A DNA stretch of 64,000 nt from Halorussus caseinilyticus (lineage in GTDB: Archaea > Halobacteriota > Halobacteria > Halobacteriales > Haladaptataceae): assembly GCF_029338395.1 (NCBI RefSeq), contig NZ_CP119809.1, forward strand, positions 744,001-808,000. Reading direction: 5' to 3'. The notes beneath the pieces were generated by a model, which worked only from the letters and a program-made list of their open reading frames with translations, was not told the DNA's origin and searched no databases. How positions within the stretch are numbered: position 1 is the first letter of the stretch; the number at the start of each line of letters is the position of its first letter. Positions 19,019-56,979 of this stretch are shown here, piece by piece. The position numbers were made by a program, and so were the translations under genes.

Positions 19019-19714
19019 ATGGACGCGCAGTTCCGCGACCGGGCGGTCTACCTCCCCGACGAGGACGCGCTGGTCGTCGCCGACCTCCACGTCGGGAGAG
19101 ACGCGGCCTCGGCGGTCGAACTCCCGTTGGGCGAGCGCGCGGACCTGACCGAGCGACTCGCCGACCTGCTGGCGGCGTTCGACCCCGCGGAGGTCGTAAT
19201 CGCTGGCGACCTGCTCCACGCCTTCGACCGGGTGCCCGAGGGCGTGGCCGGGACTGTCGCGGCGCTCCGCGAGACGGCCGAGGCGGCGGGCGCGACGTTC
19301 GTGGTCGTCCGCGGAAACCACGACGAGATGCTCGATTCGGTGCTGGAGGGGACCGGGATTTCCGCCCGCGGGGAGTACCGCGTCGGCGAGACGCTGGTCC
19401 ACCACGGCCACGCGCGACCGGAGGGCGAAGCGGCCCGTTACGTCGTCGGCCACGACCACCCGGCCATCGAAATCGAGGGCAAGCGCCACCCCTGTCTGCT
19501 GTACGGTCCGGGGACGTTCCGCGGCGCGGACGTGGTGATGCTCCCCGCGTTCAACCGCCTCGCGCCCGGCACGACGGTCAACGGAATGGGGGCGCGGGAC
19601 TTCCAGTCGCCGGTCGTGACCGACGCCGATGCGTTGCGGCCGGTGGTGTGGGATTCGGAGGGCGAGGACGTGCTGTCGTTTCCGCCCTTGGGCGAGTTCC
19701 GGCGGATGCTCTGA
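19019..19714 (+). CDS. Metallophosphoesterase
   Basis: 231 residues from the ATG at 19019. The calcineurin-like signature is complete: DLHVGRD (D and H ligands), VIAGDLLHAFDR, VVRGNHDEML, and the late His motifs VHHGHARPE and VVGHDHPA. It belongs to the COG1407 type, predicted ICC-like phosphoesterase, often linked with DNA helicases in archaea; no helicase is adjacent here. The open frame upstream of the chosen start runs through repeat DNA and is not protein-like. Confidence 0.9.
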   Translation: MDAQFRDRAVYLPDEDALVVADLHVGRDAASAVELPLGERADLTERLADLLAAFDPAEVVIAGDLLHAFDRVPEGVAGTVAALRETAEAAGATFVVVRGNHDEMLDSVLEGTGISARGEYRVGETLVHHGHARPEGEAARYVVGHDHPAIEIEGKRHPCLLYGPGTFRGADVVMLPAFNRLAPGTTVNGMGARDFQSPVVTDADALRPVVWDSEGEDVLSFPPLGEFRRML

Positions 19715-20083
19715 GTTCGGCGGCGTTCGTGGTAATTCTCGGAGAGTCGAAGCGTCTCGTCGTCTGGGAGAGTCGAAGTCGTCGTCTCGGAGAAAAAGGC
19801 ACGTAGCTAGCTTCAGGCTTGAGCCAATGAAGACCGCACAGCACCGCTCAGCACCGCGACCGCGGGCCACGTCCTCCCCAACCGACTGCGTTGCCTGCGG
19901 CCGCAGGTCAGCGAGACGCTTCGCGTCTCGCAAGCCTCGCTCCCTCCGGTCGCTGTGCTACTCGTCCCTCGCGCGGGTGGGCGCGGCCACTTGCGGGCCG
20001 CGCCCGCACGCGCCGGGATGAGTGTCGAGGACGGTTCGCGCCGGGGTGGAAAGGTCAGTCAACTACGTCTGAAGTGGTCGGAG
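19715..20083. repeat. Hairpin-type interspersed repeat, copy D (minus orientation)
   Basis: No gene. Positions 19806-19829 contain the inverted form of the tail module TTCAAGCCTGAAGCTAG seen at 48447-48466 and 56796-56815. Positions 19970-20016 are an exact 47-base inverted copy of 48255-48301 and include a GC-rich hairpin. The stretch 19850-19890 also matches 48390-48430 with few differences. The AT/GC pattern and shared ends indicate a related element at both loci. Confidence 0.75.
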
Positions 20084-21358
20084 CTACGCTCGAAACTCCA
20101 ACTCGAAGTCCCGAGCGACCCGTTTCGCGGCCTCACGGCCGCTCACCATCGCGGCGTTCAGCGACGAGGCGTCGGTGTACTCACCCGCGAGGTAGACCGG
20201 ACCCTCCGGCGCGCGCACGTCGGGCAGGCCGTCGTGGACCCCCGGCGGTTGGGCGAACTGCGCGAACTCGATTCTGCTGGTGTGGAGCGGTTCGAGGTCG
20301 AGTCTGCGCTCGGGGTACCACGAGTCGAGCGTCCGGGTCGTCCTCGCGGCGAGGTCCTCGTCGGGGTCGTCGGACACCCCGAGGTAGGTCGCGCTCAGCA
20401 GGTTCCGGTCCTCGGGCGCGTACTCGGGCGCGACCGCGGAGAGCTGGGCGACTTGGTTCGGCGCGTCGGACTCGGCGTTCAACAGGAGTCGCTTCCCGGC
20501 GTCGAGTTCCGGGCCGTCGAAGGCGTAGTACTGGGTGACACACCCTTTCGCGTCGGTCGGAATCGACTCGACGCCGGTCAACTCGCGGGCCTGCTTGGGG
20601 TCGGTGGCGACCACCACCGCGTCGGCGCTGGTCGAGTCCCGGCCGAGTTCGACTTCGGGGTCGCTCGCGTGCGGGTCGAGGTCCGTGACCGTCTCGTCGG
20701 TCACGAACTCGACGCCCGCGTCGCGGGCGGTCTCGGCCAGTTGCTCGCTGACCGCCGCCATCCCGCGGGCCGGGACCGCGATGCGCCCGACCGTCAGCAT
20801 CTTGAACGTGAACTCGAACACCTTCTTCGAGGTGCCGAGACTCCGGTCTAACGTGATACCGCCGTAGAACGGCGCGGCGAAGTTCTCCACGAACTGGTCG
20901 GAGAAGCCCCGGTCGCGGAGGTACTCGCGGGTGGACTCGTCCGGTCCGGCGAAAATCTCCCGGTCGGGCTTGTCGGCGAGTTCCCGCCGGAGTTCCAGCA
21001 CTCGGAGTTTGTCCCGGAGCGTCACCTCCCGATTGAACGCGGTTTCGAGCGCGGCGTCCACGTCCCGGAAGGGGTCGGCGAGCGTCGAGCGCTCGCCCGG
21101 CCGAGCGACGACCGCACCGGGCTTGAAGTACCGGAGGTCGAGGGCGTCGAAGTCGAGTTCCCGTCGGGCCGCGGGGTAGGCGGTGAAAAGCACCTGAAAC
21201 CCCCGGTCGAAGACGAACCCGTCGCGGCGGAGCGACCGCACCCGCCCGCCGAGGTCCGACTGGCGCTCGAAGAGTCGCACGTCCGCGCCCGCCTCCGCGA
21301 GGTGGCGACTAGCGACCAGTCCGGCGAGTCCACCGCCAGCGACGACGACATCGGTCAT
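20084..21358 (-). CDS. FAD-dependent NAD(P)-binding amine oxidase/phytoene desaturase-like oxidoreductase
   Basis: 424 residues. The N-terminal dinucleotide fold is VVVAGGGLAGLVASRHLAEAG followed by the RSDLGGRVRSLRRDGF stretch typical of amine-oxidase/desaturase flavoproteins. The C-terminal FAD motif is VYLAGEYTDASSLNAAMVSGREAA. The middle holds the substrate domain (VTDETVTDLD... VVATDP). It probably acts on a membrane lipid or carotenoid-like substrate, which cannot be named. It is monocistronic, divergent from the DUF5789-like gene. Confidence 0.88.
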   Translation of the reverse strand: MTDVVVAGGGLAGLVASRHLAEAGADVRLFERQSDLGGRVRSLRRDGFVFDRGFQVLFTAYPAARRELDFDALDLRYFKPGAVVARPGERSTLADPFRDVDAALETAFNREVTLRDKLRVLELRRELADKPDREIFAGPDESTREYLRDRGFSDQFVENFAAPFYGGITLDRSLGTSKKVFEFTFKMLTVGRIAVPARGMAAVSEQLAETARDAGVEFVTDETVTDLDPHASDPEVELGRDSTSADAVVVATDPKQARELTGVESIPTDAKGCVTQYYAFDGPELDAGKRLLLNAESDAPNQVAQLSAVAPEYAPEDRNLLSATYLGVSDDPDEDLAARTTRTLDSWYPERRLDLEPLHTSRIEFAQFAQPPGVHDGLPDVRAPEGPVYLAGEYTDASSLNAAMVSGREAAKRVARDFELEFRA

Positions 21359-26916: not shown

Positions 26917-27444
26917 TCAGCCACAGCGTGGCGACTCACTCCGCGGCGCGAGGCTGACGACGCGGGTGTCGCCGTAGGTCGTTTCGGCGTGGCGTTCGTG
27001 GTGGCCGACCAAACAGAAGTCGGGGCCGAGGGCGTCGAGGAGTTCGTCGATTCGCTCGCACCCAGCGTCGTAGCCGTAGTAAATCAGACCGTGGGGCGCT
27101 TCGTGGGTCAAGAGTACGTCCACGTCTTCGACCCGCTTCAGGCGCGCTACGTCCTCGCGGACGAAGTGGCGTCGGCGCTCGCCCGCGAGGTCCGCGCGCG
27201 ACTCGTCGTACTTCGTCGGCGCGTAGTTGCCCGAGAGACCCGCCACGCGCAGGCCCTCGACTTCGGCCGCGGTACTGGCGAGCAGGCGGGCGTTCCGGAC
27301 GGTCACGCTCGCGGGGTCGTCGCCGCGCCGGAGGGCGTCGATGGCGTCGAAGTCCTCGTTGTTCCCGGCGACGAAGTAGGTCGGGACCGGCAGGTCGCCC
27401 GTCTGCAACGCGGCATCGGCGTGGGCGTCTCCGAGGACGAGCAT
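26917..27444 (-). CDS. Degenerate YfcE-like metallophosphoesterase (paralogue 1)
   Basis: 175 residues from the ATG at 27444 (MLVLGDAHADAALQTGDLPV). It is a close paralogue of the gene at 27981 (NNEDFDAIDALR, EVEGLRVAGLSGNYAPT, VLLTHEAPHGL, ETTYGDTRVVSLA shared). Compared with that copy it lacks about 19 residues after GDAHAD and about 5 after GDL, and its C-terminus ends in an unrelated SPRCG. The metal-ligand motifs GDAH, GDL, GNNED and HE are still present. It may be folding-defective or a shortened variant. Confidence 0.65.
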   Translation of the reverse strand: MLVLGDAHADAALQTGDLPVPTYFVAGNNEDFDAIDALRRGDDPASVTVRNARLLASTAAEVEGLRVAGLSGNYAPTKYDESRADLAGERRRHFVREDVARLKRVEDVDVLLTHEAPHGLIYYGYDAGCERIDELLDALGPDFCLVGHHERHAETTYGDTRVVSLAPRSESPRCG

Positions 27445-27980
27445 CGCCGGATACTCGCCGGGGACGGACCTAAACGCTGTGGCTTGCCGGAGTCCGTCCC
27501 GACCCTCCACCGGACCGCGCTCGGACCACCGACCACGGGACGCGCCGCGTCTGCGCTCGCGCCTGCGGTTCCGCGCGAGCGCAGACGCACGCGGGGAGGA
27601 ACGGGGGCGCGGTGCTGTGCGGTTGCGTTGCGGTCGGCGGTAGCGGTGCGGTTGCGGTCTTCATCGGCGTCGGCGATAGTGCAGTCGGCGGTGCGGTTGC
27701 GGTCTGATTAGCTCCCAGAGATACGGACTCGCTGGTTCGCGGTCGGCGGCAGTCAACGAACGACGACAATCAGCGACCAGCAATAGTCAGCAAACGACGA
27801 CAGTCAACGAACGGCAACAGTCAGCGAACAGCAACAGTCAGCGAACGACGACAGTCAACGGCGCAGTGCGGTCGGCCACGCCGCGGGACTGCGCCGCGCC
27901 ACGGGCGCCGAAAGAAATCTCAACAAGTCTAAGAGCAATCTATATCTATCTAAAGAGTATCTAGAAAATTCTCAAAGCAT
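27445..27980. repeat. Hairpin-type interspersed repeat, copy A, with a tandem array
   Basis: No gene. Positions 27547-27562 and 27573-27588 form a perfect 16-bp stem with a 10-base loop. The module GCGGGGAGGAACGGG follows at 27591. From 27538 to 27720 the sequence matches 44130-44405 in inverted orientation. Positions 27752-27853 hold six 17-base units with the pattern GTCARCGAACRRCRACA. Positions 27905-27975 are strongly AT-rich. The region separates the two phosphoesterase paralogues. Confidence 0.75.
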
Positions 27981-28622
27981 TTACGAGGAAGGCGTCGAAT
28001 AGGAAGTCAGTTCCAGCGTCTCGGGGTTCAAGTCGTAGTAGCGTTCGCCGACCGCGGCGAGACTCACGACGCGGGTGTCGCCGTAGGTCGTCTCGGCGTG
28101 TTCGTGGTGGTGGCCCACCAAGCAGAGCCGTGGCTCTAGCGCCTCCAGCAACCCGTCGATGTGTTCACACCCCACTTCGTAGGACTCCTCGACCGGCAGG
28201 CCGTGGGGCGCTTCGTGGGTCAGGAGTACGTCCACGTCCTCGACTTGTTTCAGGCGCTCTACGTCCCCGCGGACGAAGTGGCGTCGGCGCTCGCCCTGTA
28301 GGTTCGGGCGGGGGCGCTCGAACTGGGTCGGAGCGTAGTTGCCCGAGAGACCCGCCACGCGCAGGCCCTCGATTTCGACCGCCTCGTCGGTCAGCAGGTG
28401 GGCGTTCGTGACCGCGGAACTCTCGACGCGGCCGTGTCGGAGGGCGTCGATGGTGTCGAAGTCCTCGTTGTTTCCGGCGATGAAGTAGGTCGGAATCGGC
28501 AGGTCGTAGTAGAGCAGGTCGCCCAACTGCAAGGCGACATCGGCGTCGGCCTCGCGGTAGGCGGCGAACAGTGCGCGCCGATTGTCGGGGTCGTCGGCGT
28601 GGGCGTCTCCGAGAACGAGCAT
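27981..28622 (-). CDS. YfcE-like metallophosphoesterase (paralogue 2, complete)
   Basis: 213 residues (MLVLGDAHADDPDNRRALFA). The metal-ligand motifs are complete: LGDAHAD, LQLGDLLYYDLP, IAGNNEDFDTID, LLTHEAPHGL, LVGHHHEHAETT. It belongs to the small YfcE/MJ0936 class of phosphodiesterases. A close, deleted copy lies 536 bases further left in the same direction, so a tandem duplication is evident. The C-terminus here (YYDLNPETLELTSY) is the intact one. Confidence 0.88.
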   Translation of the reverse strand: MLVLGDAHADDPDNRRALFAAYREADADVALQLGDLLYYDLPIPTYFIAGNNEDFDTIDALRHGRVESSAVTNAHLLTDEAVEIEGLRVAGLSGNYAPTQFERPRPNLQGERRRHFVRGDVERLKQVEDVDVLLTHEAPHGLPVEESYEVGCEHIDGLLEALEPRLCLVGHHHEHAETTYGDTRVVSLAAVGERYYDLNPETLELTSYSTPSS

Positions 28623-44060: not shown

Positions 44061-44524
44061 GTTTTCAGGGAGGTGCGTCGGGCGAACTGTTCGTGAGTAG
44101 ACGGCGGTCGGGGACCGACGACTGCGTGAGCTAATCAGAACCGCACAGCACCGTGACAGTATCGCACAGCACCGTGACAGTATCGCACAGCACCGTGACT
44201 GCAACTGCAACCGTCAACCGCACCGTAACCGCACCGTGACTGCAACTGCAACCGTCAACCGCACCGTGACTGCAACCGTCAACCGCACTATCGCCGACTC
44301 CGATGAAGACCGCCACCGCAACCGCACCGCGCCCCGTTCCTCCCCGCGTGCGTCTGCGCTCGCGGGGAACCGCGAGCGCGAGCGCAGACGCGGCGCATCC
44401 TGTCGGTGGGTCGGACGGGGGCGTCCCGTGGATTGGTGAGTCGAGACACTGAAACGACAGGTCTCGGCGTCCCCCGGCGTTCCGGTCCGACACGCTAAAG
44501 CACGCCGCGTCTGTTCACGCAGAC
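44061..44524. repeat. Hairpin-type interspersed repeat, copy B (minus orientation), with tandem arrays
   Basis: No gene. Three 21-base units start at 44142, 44163 and 44184. More degenerate units (CCGCACCGTGACTGC) continue to about 44300. A perfect 15-bp stem is formed by 44350-44364 and 44377-44391. The whole 44130-44405 segment is the inverted counterpart of 27538-27720, including the GGGGAGGAAC module. Confidence 0.75.
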
Positions 44525-47033: not shown

Positions 47034-48167
47034 TTACAGCAACACGACCAGAACCACCAGTAGCGCCACCACCAACACGACGCCGCCCGCGACGGCCGCG
47101 GGTTCGACCCAACTCATCCGCTCTTTCGCCTCGTCGTAGGCGGTCAGGTACTTGTCCAGCACCTGCTCGTCGTCGTAGTCCGCGAAGTTCTCGTTGTAGT
47201 CCATCGGGTCCATCTCGCTGGCGGTGAGGAGGGCGTCGGTGAGTTCCTGCTCGCTGGTCGTTCGGAAGGCGCGGTCCTGCTGTTCGACCAGTTCGTGGGC
47301 GCTCGACTCGACGTGGTACTCCACGACGCCCGCGCACCCGCACGCCAGTGCCCGGAGCAAGTCGGTCGGGAACGCCTCCCGGCGGGCGGTCTGGGCGTAG
47401 ACGTGCGCGCCCTTGAACGCCGCGAGTCGGTTTTCGAGCGGTTGGTCGCCAGCGAACGACACCCGGTCGTCGATTCGCAGGTCCCGGACCTGCCGCTCGT
47501 ACACCTCGCGCTCGGGACCGTCGCCGATGACGACGGCCGACCAGTCGTGGTCCCGGAGTTCGGCCAGCGCCAGAAGCAGGCTTTCGAGGTTGGCGTCGGC
47601 GTCGAGTCGCCGGGAGTAAACGATGTCGGCGACTTCGCGGGCCGGGGCCGCGCGGATTGCGTTCAGGTCGATGCCGTTGGGGACGACCCGGACCGCCTCG
47701 CCGTCCGCGCCGAGTTCCCGGACGCGAGTCCGGACGGTTTCGGAGGGCGTGAGAACGAGGTCCGGGACGCTCGCGGCGAGACGCCACCGCGGGTCGTCGG
47801 CGTCACCGGTGTCGGGCGACTCGTACCAGTCCACGACCAGCGGTGCCCGGAGGAAGAGACTGGCGACTTTCGCGGCGAGGACGTGTGTCGGGTCGGCGGC
47901 GGTGGCCTGAATCACGTCCGGGTCTACGGCCCGGAGGACTGCCGGGAGCGCGACGGCGAATCGGCCCTCGCCGGGCGCGTCGGTGACTGCCCGGTAGGTC
48001 ACGCCGTCCTGTTCGAACGAGTCGTGGTCGCCGTCCCACCACTGCGCGCAACAGACAACCACGTCGTGGCCCCGGCCAGAGAGCGCCTCGGCAGTGCGCC
48101 GGATTCGTCGCGTTGCCCCCGTCCCGCGGTGTTGGGCCACCGTCTCCGAGACGAACGCGACGCGCAT
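47034..48167 (-). CDS. Family 4-type glycosyltransferase with C-terminal membrane anchor
   Basis: 377 residues from the ATG at 48167 (MRVAFVSETVAQHRGTGATR). GT-B fold: N-terminal half AEALSGRGHDVVVCCAQWWDG, and a C-terminal nucleotide-sugar site VSFAGDQPLENRLAAFKGAH with VYAQTARREAFPTDLLRALACGCAG (E-x7-E-like). A single membrane segment of about 20 hydrophobic residues closes the protein (VVLVVALLVVLVVLL). The donor and acceptor are unknown. It converges with folCP after 28 bases. Confidence 0.82.
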   Translation of the reverse strand: MRVAFVSETVAQHRGTGATRRIRRTAEALSGRGHDVVVCCAQWWDGDHDSFEQDGVTYRAVTDAPGEGRFAVALPAVLRAVDPDVIQATAADPTHVLAAKVASLFLRAPLVVDWYESPDTGDADDPRWRLAASVPDLVLTPSETVRTRVRELGADGEAVRVVPNGIDLNAIRAAPAREVADIVYSRRLDADANLESLLLALAELRDHDWSAVVIGDGPEREVYERQVRDLRIDDRVSFAGDQPLENRLAAFKGAHVYAQTARREAFPTDLLRALACGCAGVVEYHVESSAHELVEQQDRAFRTTSEQELTDALLTASEMDPMDYNENFADYDDEQVLDKYLTAYDEAKERMSWVEPAAVAGGVVLVVALLVVLVVLL

Positions 48168-48768
48168 ACGAAGCGCCACGAAGCGACCGACTAAAAACCC
48201 AACCTTTCTCGTCTCCGCGCTCGCCCGCCGCGCGCCAGCGTGACTCCCCCCGGTCCGGCGCGTGCGGGCGCGGCCCGCAAGTGGCCGCGCCCACCCGCGC
48301 GAGGTCGTCGGCGGTGTGCGCCGACTGCTCGGCAGACCGGATTGTCTGCCGGTGGACGACCGAACGAGCGCCGAAGGCGCGAGTGAGGGAGTCGGTTGGG
48401 GAGGGCGTGGCCCGCGGTGGCGGTGCGGGACGGGTGCGGTCTGATTGGTTCAAGCCTGAAGCTAGTGACTTTCTCGTCTCCCGTCCCTCGTCTCTCCGTC
48501 TCCCATCTCTCCCGTCCCTCGTCTCTCCGTCTCCCATCTCTCCCGTCCCTCGTCTCTCCGTCTCCCATCTCTCCCGTCCCTCGTCTCTCCGTCTCCCATC
48601 TCTCCCGTCCCTCGTCTCCCACCCCGCCGTCCCCAGTTTTCCCTCCACGCCCGCCGGTCCACGGACGAACTTCGCGCGTCGCCAGCAGACATAACCAAAG
48701 ATACCCGAAAGACAACTATACAATCCTCTACAAAATCTACAGCTGTTTCAACAACACGTAAATAAGTC
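48168..48768. repeat. Hairpin-type interspersed repeat, copy C, and a 31-bp minisatellite
   Basis: No gene. Positions 48255-48301 duplicate 19970-20016 (inverted, 47 exact bases) and contain a 10-bp stem hairpin (48266-48275 and 48283-48292). The tail module ends near 48466. From 48479 to about 48620 a perfect 31-base unit repeats four times plus a partial copy. Positions 48690-48768 are AT-rich. Confidence 0.8.
48479..48620. repeat. 31-bp tandem repeat (minisatellite), 4 full units plus part
   Basis: Units begin at 48479, 48510, 48541, 48572 and 48603 with the core TCCCGTCCCTCGTCTCTCC and are identical. The unit is not a multiple of three and no protein reading is credible. A perfect array like this is often variable in copy number between strains. 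Confidence 0.85.
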
Positions 48769-49332
48769 TCAGTCGTTCACTTCGAGGATGAAGTCCGGCG
48801 CGGCGTTGTTCGCGCGTCGTCGCCAGCGCCGCAGGTCGTGGGTGTGGAACAGCGCCGTCACGCCGAACACGGCGATGACGAGCAGGGCATACTGGACGCC
48901 CGAGAGGAGCGTGAAGGGGTAGAGATTCGCCCACACCGAGGCGAGGACGAGGAGGCTCACCGCCGCGAGTCCGAGGTACAACCGGTGCCACGGGAGGGAG
49001 GCCTGCGGGTCGCTGGCGAGTTGCAGGTCGAGTCTGGCGGCCTTGTCGGTCGTTCGGACCAGACTCTGTTCGGCCTCGTACTCGAGAACTCCCGCCGACT
49101 CCAGTTTCGGCAGGTGGGTCTGGTGGAGCGCACTGTACACCGACTTTCGTTGGCTCGGTGAAATCTCGGATACGGACGTGTCGTTCTCCCACGCCGCGAC
49201 TTGCTCGGCGAGTTCGCCGAGTTCCACCGGACCGCCGTATCGCTGGAGGTAGTAGAGTACGTACCGACGGCGGAGGTTCTTCACGGCGTCGAAGACTTCC
49301 TCGCGGGAAGTCCGTGTGCTTTCAGTTGCCAT
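48769..49332 (-). CDS. DUF7344-like winged-helix regulator with two membrane helices (paralogue)
   Basis: 187 residues. The N-terminal winged helix (EVFDAVKNLRRRYVLYYLQR, SQRKSVYSALHQTHLPKLES) and two hydrophobic helices (LYLGLAAVSLLVLASVW, YALLVIAVFGVTALF) match the gene at 16042 in architecture. It is a presumed membrane-tethered regulator. A repeat array lies immediately downstream. Confidence 0.82.
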   Translation of the reverse strand: MATESTRTSREEVFDAVKNLRRRYVLYYLQRYGGPVELGELAEQVAAWENDTSVSEISPSQRKSVYSALHQTHLPKLESAGVLEYEAEQSLVRTTDKAARLDLQLASDPQASLPWHRLYLGLAAVSLLVLASVWANLYPFTLLSGVQYALLVIAVFGVTALFHTHDLRRWRRRANNAAPDFILEVND

Positions 49333-56332: not shown

Positions 56333-56979
56333 ACCCGCTACTCTATGGCGGGCGGGGAAAACAGTTTACCTCTCTGTCGGGACGGATTCGACTGCTCGCG
56401 GTGGTTTCGGCGGTGCGCGTTTTCGGACGACACCGACGACGGAGATTCGGAGGTAGACGGCGACGAGAGATTTCGGGGATGGACGGCGGCGAGAGATTTC
56501 GGGGATGGACGGCGACGACAGCGAGTTGGAGGAAGACGACGGACCGCGACCGACTGCTTGAACCAACGACTCGTTCCACCGGCCGACCCCTCGTGGACGG
56601 TGACAGTCCGCGCTCCCGTGGAACGTTCCGAATCGCGCGACGTGAGAGTCACCGACCACGGGACGCGAAAGTATCACCGACCACGGGACGCGAAAGTATT
56701 ACCGACCACGGGACGCGCACCGCGAGCGCCGACAGGCGCGAGCGGTGCGGGGAGGAACGGGGGCGCGGTGCGGTGGCGGTGCCGTGCGGTCATGATTGGT
56801 TCAAGCCTGAAGCTAGCCGTTCGAGTCGTCCGCGGTCGCTGTGCGGTGGCGGTCCGAGGCATCGTCGTTCCTTCGACCAAACAGACGACGACCAAACAGA
56901 CGACGGAAACATATAAACGTCCGAAGGAAAGGTAAAAATGTCCGAAAGAAACACAAACACTCCCGAAAGAAACCGCTAT
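56333..56979. repeat. Hairpin-type interspersed repeat, copy E, with tandem units
   Basis: No gene. Two 24-base repeats lie at 56465-56488 and 56491-56514. Three 25-base units begin at 56649, 56674 and 56699. A near-perfect GC-rich palindrome follows at about 56717-56750, then the GCGGGGAGGAACGGG module at 56747 and the tail module ending near 56815. A purine-rich AT-leaning stretch (56880-56960) closes it. Confidence 0.75.

Follow-up and report, generated by a model that had tools for sequence, protein, structure and literature searches.

Within a 64,000-nt stretch of the Halorussus caseinilyticus genome (NZ_CP119809.1, positions 744,001–808,000; hereafter the window), two intergenic places carry a long run of identical bases in opposite orientation. 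A sequence-only reading of the window had proposed that the run reflects recent copying or conversion between the two places and could mediate inversion of the DNA between them, which raises the question of whether the two form a special pair or are members of something more widespread. We find that the pair is not special within a high-copy family of intergenic elements, which we have named family E. Our leading reading, to which we give a probability of roughly 0.7, is that the family is a REP/BIME-like mosaic of hairpins without a RAYT, whose approximately 100 intergenic copies are homogenised and rearranged by recombination.

The inverted match joins two members of a high-copy family

The exact match is real and somewhat longer than first described, 50 nt and not 47, with positions 19967–20016 (+) identical to 48255–48304 (−) on direct comparison of the strings. 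Both copies are intergenic and in opposite orientation, and 28,238 nt separate the arms, which had been placed 28 kb apart. The spacer of copy 1 lies between the convergent predicted genes 19019–19714 (+) and 20084–21358 (−), and that of copy 2 between the predicted genes 47034–48167 (−) and 48769–49332 (−), so that copy 2 is upstream of 47034–48167. The shared 50 nt form a stem-loop, in agreement with the hairpin noted earlier, and the fold z-scores of the two elements are −4.8 and −3.9. The likeness also continues beyond the 50 nt, as the sequence-only reading had stated, with the two elements (about 212 nt each) aligning at 72.7% identity over 220 columns (E 8e-28). Chance is ruled out by 50 exact nucleotides and a family of about 100; the identity is far beyond chance, yet it is expected, as both copies belong to a high-copy family. 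Directly upstream of copy 2 is a 31-bp tandem repeat of 4.6 perfect copies (48477–48618).

A BLAST search of the 4.39-Mb genome with copy 1 returns at least 61 matching pieces (E ≤ 1e-3) on contigs C1 and C2, a count for which 40 of 294 candidate places were scored. The 12-nt core, allowing one mismatch, occurs 187 times, compared with 83 for a reversed control, and the exact 17-nt core 51 times against none. From these data we estimate about 100 copies of family E in this genome. All 93 distinct elements in the examined loci sit between predicted genes, with 27 in divergent, 24 in convergent, 23 in same-direction and 18 in opposite-direction spacers and one unassigned, and these 93 show no preference for gene orientation or spacer type, which rules out a general role as terminator or promoter. 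A coding role is likewise ruled out, as the lengths of 136 elements spread over all three phases (58, 41 and 37).

The exact core is present in 50 of 292 sampled genomes of the class. Within the window's own family, the Haladaptataceae, 7 of 8 genomes carry it in 12–51 copies each, while the 43 carriers outside that family have 1–8 exact cores each. Named carriers are Halorussus, Haladaptatus and one Haloarcula, in addition to MAGs, and four matching plasmid records come from Halorussus and Halobaculum. Phage records gave no match to family E; a virus-borne origin was rejected, as the rest of the element is found in none of the 22 viral contig pieces that contain the 17-mer. BLAST finds matches in each of the 17 same-genus relatives. 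One of them, G008, has just two, both weak, with no exact core of family E or of its sister family F (described below), and this nearly element-free species provides a natural control for the family.

Anatomy of the element and its sister family

Read 5′ to 3′, the element consists of a head, ACCGC repeats, the core CCTCCCCAACCGAYT, hairpin B, the sequence CTCRTCC, and the long, GC-rich hairpin C, which ends in GCGCGCGCC. The core plus hairpins extend 67–248 nt after the core, and many copies have additional hairpin modules, whose points of insertion are fixed. The head is composed of GCTAGC and a species-specific stretch, CAGGCTTGAACCAAT, that is found in 51 of 78 elements in the window's genome and 3 of 58 elsewhere. 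Hairpin B is an imperfect helix in which TGCGnTnCTC pairs with GCGmTmCTCR, with every third pair a pyrimidine mismatch.

Copy 1 occupies 19806–20016 (+), from the GCTAGC head through ...CACGCGCCGG. Its conserved core, CCTCCCCAACCGACT, lies at 19873–19887 (+), and its hairpin B, with the words TGCGTTGC ... GTGCTACTC, at 19887–19964 (+), within which a two-hairpin module is inserted at about 19894–19939 (+). Copy 2 (locus L017) occupies 48255–48466 (−), with the same core at 48390–48404 (−). The 50-nt match corresponds to the 3′ hairpin, hairpin C, of each copy (19967–20016 and 48255–48304, respectively), as judged from the fold and from string identity.

A sister family, F, has the same kind of head as family E joined to a different body, and its core is found in 18 exact copies in the window's genome. 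One F element in the window, at 27535–27692 (−), has an ACCGC-repeat head and a body made of CCCGTTCCTCCCCGC, a hairpin and GCGTCCCGTGGTCGG; another, at 44275–44403 (+), has a 72-nt arm that is 93% complementary to 27535–27606. At 56700–56822 (−; the low end is approximate) an F body is carried on a family E head (GGCTAGCTTCAGGCTTGAACCAATCA...). The first F element sits between two calcineurin-like phosphoesterase genes, 26917–27444 and 27981–28622, that share directly oriented stretches of 75–91% identity. In one relative (G005, locus L366) the spacer between genes h10 and h13 has, by eye, an F element where G009, G003 and G014 have an E element.

Modules assort almost independently among copies

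Among the 78 elements of the window's genome that have all parts, Mantel correlations are 0.04 between head plus core and hairpin B (p 0.23), 0.14 between head plus core and hairpin C (p 0.056) and 0.05 between hairpins B and C (p 0.15), and modules thus assort almost independently. Identical C hairpins form four groups among the 78, one of them the pair in the window; two of these groups, the pair included, have unrelated B hairpins, and identical B hairpins with unrelated C also occur. Copy 2 resembles an element located 1.8 Mb away (L027, C1:2586657; 92% over 215 nt) more than it does copy 1, and other 3′ hairpins located 0.6 to 2.6 Mb away are 96–98% identical over 51–55 nt. As copy 2 is closest to L027 and modules are nearly uncorrelated, the 50 nt represent one module common to otherwise different mosaics. 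The earlier proposal of copying or conversion therefore stands for the family, given this mosaicism and a copy 2 spacer that is element-free in most relatives (see below), though it does not extend to a recent exchange restricted to the two copies in the window.

Sites are gained, lost and remodelled between species

When the two sites are aligned across same-genus relatives, the copy 1 spacer holds a full element in 5 of 17 (G004, G007, G015, G016 and G017) and a cut or degenerate one in G001, G006 and G009; it is element-free in six and has a different neighbour gene in three, all as scored by eye. The hairpins at this site vary between species, and internal hairpins turn over freely. By eye and core search, the copy 2 spacer is without an element in 13 of 14 relatives and has a degenerate one in G015. 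These comparisons show that elements are gained, lost and remodelled between species.

A rival account is that the family is mobile but non-autonomous (REPIN-, PATE- or MITE-like) and is copied by a transposase in trans, with the mosaicism secondary. Copy 2 is a full-length near-copy of L027, with an alignment that stops at the element borders, its spacer is empty in nearly all relatives, and the family has hairpins and close pairs that are inverted as in BIMEs: 26 of 29 pairs closer than 1.2 kb are inverted. However, the Y1 transposase domain PF01797 (E ≤ 1e-3), present in 10 of the 18 genomes searched, has no match in the window's genome or in seven relatives (G001, G002, G008, G009, G010, G013 and G016), among them G002 and G010 with 25 and 43 exact cores. 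This search, confined to Y1, argues against the genome now having an enzyme of the RAYT or IS200 kind. Furthermore, the 62 of 93 elements with both ends recognised have no excess of target-site duplications (mean longest direct repeat 5.5, compared with 5.4 in mismatched flanks), and no terminal inverted repeats are seen by eye, the 5′ end GCTAGCTTCAGG being unlike the 3′ end CGCGCCGG. With this evidence on both sides, we consider a mobile element of this kind possible but on the whole unlikely.

Several observations concern the neighbourhood of the elements. Among pairs closer than 1.2 kb in the window's genome, 10 of 11 are head to head (L161, L163, L021, L023, L026, L106, L119, L125, L148 and L156), and most of these enclose one or two small genes. 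An autonomous element with its gene between two copies was rejected, as the genes within close pairs are, by eye, unlike each other. One of the three direct close pairs, L286, comes from a viral contig piece that lacks the remainder of the element. A direct duplication on C2 (L106 and L164, at C2:1309–4900 and 384600–388190), of which one close pair is part, is 99.9% identical with two elements inside; it reaches the edges of the compared stretches and is therefore at least 3.6 kb long. Tandem repeats lie within 150 nt upstream of 20 of 62 elements and downstream of 12 of 62, a difference that is not clear. In flanks of up to 150 nt, G exceeds C on the side before the head for 54 of 61 elements of the window's genome, whatever the gene orientation, and the side after the tail is C-rich in 38 of 53; elsewhere the values are 26 of 46 and 18 of 46, and the G-rich upstream flank is thus not a trait of the family.

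The elements could also form a class of their own among archaeal interspersed repeats, RAYT-free and built as a combinatorial mosaic of hairpins that a putative host or element protein recognises, although we regard this as a doubtful extension. It is equally speculative that such a protein might recognise the pyrimidine mismatches at every third pair of the hairpins, nick there and copy elements to new spacers. Were a class of this kind real, DNA would be flipped between inverted copies and Halorussus genomes would carry many invertible segments. The family itself makes testable both how hairpin repeats spread without a RAYT and what share of haloarchaeal genome rearrangement such repeats cause.

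The fold is supported by compensating substitutions

The fold of family E is supported by substitutions that compensate each other across the stems. In hairpin B, tested on the 47 of 136 elements that belong to one word class, Watson–Crick pairs make up 92 of 94 variable cells, whereas 20,000 shuffles average 30.5 and never exceed 54; 9 of the 11 types of word pair are fully paired. Across 27 compact elements of the 136, 94.5% of 668 cells are paired in the named structure, which was drawn from the same sequences that it was scored on. In this set, 69 cells are changed on both sides, as against 18.6 in shuffles and 2–11 in slid controls; the 21 further pair types are less telling, as 78 of 500 shuffles reach that number (mean 18.9). 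RNAalifold agrees on hairpin B and on the inner stem of hairpin C, but shifts the register at the foot of C. For the inner C stems of 95 of the 136 elements, 845 of 856 cells are Watson–Crick, with 4 G-T and 5 A-C, mismatches being undercounted here because the best-pairing search tolerates few of them. The 126 whole C hairpins, foot included, have 41 G-T and 43 A-C mismatches and a conserved C-T mismatch. After hairpin B, CGTC is found in 14 of 27 compact elements, and CATC, CGGC or CAGC in the other 13.

Covariation this strong, with conserved mismatches, is also what a structured RNA would leave if it were transcribed from the element strand and kept for a function at the RNA level. One pair of alignment columns, 17–52, mildly favours that strand, being T-G in 18 of 27 elements and T-A in 9, a pattern that fits the element strand alone. 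In hairpin C, on the other hand, the near-equal G-T and A-C counts, in inner stems and whole hairpins alike, favour neither strand, and the placement of elements follows neither gene strand nor spacer type. A search of Rfam 15 returns no match in the window at the gathering score, with a weak one at copy 1 (E 3.5). We therefore judge a conserved RNA to be improbable.

Inversions end at inverted elements at two loci

The segment between the two copies is not itself inverted in any relative in which we could follow it. Among 15 of the 17 relatives (all but G010 and G011), none has the junctions expected of a flipped 28-kb segment, and 11 retain both original junctions. A recent gene conversion confined to this pair, which the 50 identical inverted nucleotides had suggested, is already contradicted as a special relation by the closer L027 and the near-identical distant hairpins; these junctions count against its having flipped the 28 kb, and we hold the reading as a whole to be highly improbable. 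G003 and G014 do have a smaller inversion, of genes g23–g33, whose ends fall in the copy 1 spacer and in the one where the window has an F element; no element remains at these ends in G003 or G014.

Elsewhere, two loci do have an inverted segment bounded by elements in opposite orientation. At the first (C1:2.5335–2.5379 Mb), L007 (−) and L011 (+) are 93.7% identical over a 191-nt element, and in the window's genome the segment between them is inverted when compared with every one of the eight relatives, out of 11 examined, whose region includes gene h10. In five of the eight (G003, G007, G009, G014 and G015) an E element lies at one of the two junctions of this segment. By eye, in the window's genome (G000) as well as in G003, G009 and G014, the h10 flank meets the element head and the h13 flank the element tail, the arrangement that crossing over inside the element should give. 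At the second (C1:1.6057–1.6118 Mb), genes k15–k20 lie between an E+ and an E− element in G000 and G005. In G007 they are inverted relative to k21–k25, likewise between two elements, and in G009 they are inverted with no element detected there. Of 10 relatives, seven have the G000 order and two the inverse, and G015 is not readable. The tail flank beside k15 is common to G000, G005 and G007, and the framing elements are now just 72–90% identical over 51–120 nt within one genome. The mediation of inversion that had been proposed for the 28-kb pair therefore holds for the family, by virtue of these two loci, and not for the pair itself.

Three regions, two of which were chosen for their similar inverted pairs, contain 11 spacers with an element, and 7 of these are broken in one relative or another. 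Of the element-free spacers, the break count is 1 of 25 among those no shorter than 150 bp (p 3e-4) and 3 of 68 at any length. The seven represent fewer events, as two pairs among them are both ends of a single inversion. An unselected 400-kb comparison of G010 and G005, both directions summed, shows no clear excess, with breakpoints in 2 of 14 spacers that have an element and in 6 of 84 that have none and are no shorter than 150 bp. Rearrangements occur in G008 too, despite its almost complete lack of elements. Given how the regions were selected and the null result in the unselected 400 kb, we do not claim a general enrichment of breakpoints: inversions ending at inverted elements hold for two loci and are not a genome-wide law.

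A proposed break-and-repair origin of the REP/BIME-like mosaic

For the recombining hairpin mosaic that we favour, we propose the following course. The hairpins would make their sites prone to single-strand structure and breakage, and repair of a break may use another copy as template, thereby patching modules, including the shared 50 nt, from one copy to another. A crossover during such repair between inverted copies would flip the intervening DNA, while direct neighbours would tend to delete each other, which would leave close pairs mostly inverted. The insertion of whole elements into empty spacers would fall outside this break-and-repair account.

How does family E compare with known kinds of repeat? 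Classical MITEs are, like family E, short, non-coding and dispersed, but family E differs from them: inspection by eye shows no terminal inverted repeats, and target duplications are not in excess. PATEs, which derive from IS200/IS605 elements, have hairpins and unlike ends and are not known to have a target duplication. Family E shares these features; unlike PATEs, it occurs in a genome with no Y1 transposase found, and its internal hairpins turn over freely. In archaea, RepRanger "REPs" are described as palindromes in spacers (PMC12306157), in a main text that has no word beginning with Halo or halophil and hence describes no haloarchaeon by name. No description of family E was recognised among titles and abstract openings, mostly from non-subscription journals, and the family is apparently undescribed so far.

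Our reading likens family E to REP/BIME sequences, which are also intergenic and high in copy number, with imperfect hairpins, a mosaic arrangement and close copies in opposite orientation (PMC2817692 treats BIME orientation and copy number). By its title, PMC3733652 defines REPs by a GTAG or CGTC tag at the hairpin foot, and it gives their size as 20–40 bp, whereas family E has a head and a further 67–248 nt after the core. REP/BIME sequences are bacterial and family E is archaeal, and a passage of PMC6006769 assigns archaea only the IS200-type subclass. A RAYT accompanies REP/BIME sequences ("REPtron"); family E resembles them by its features, but its genome has no Y1 match, and this sets it apart. 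What the window opens onto is a structured family of about 100 copies, in a genome with no Y1 transposase found, that combines strong covariation, near-free exchange of modules and two inversions in a form that resembles REP/BIME mosaics.
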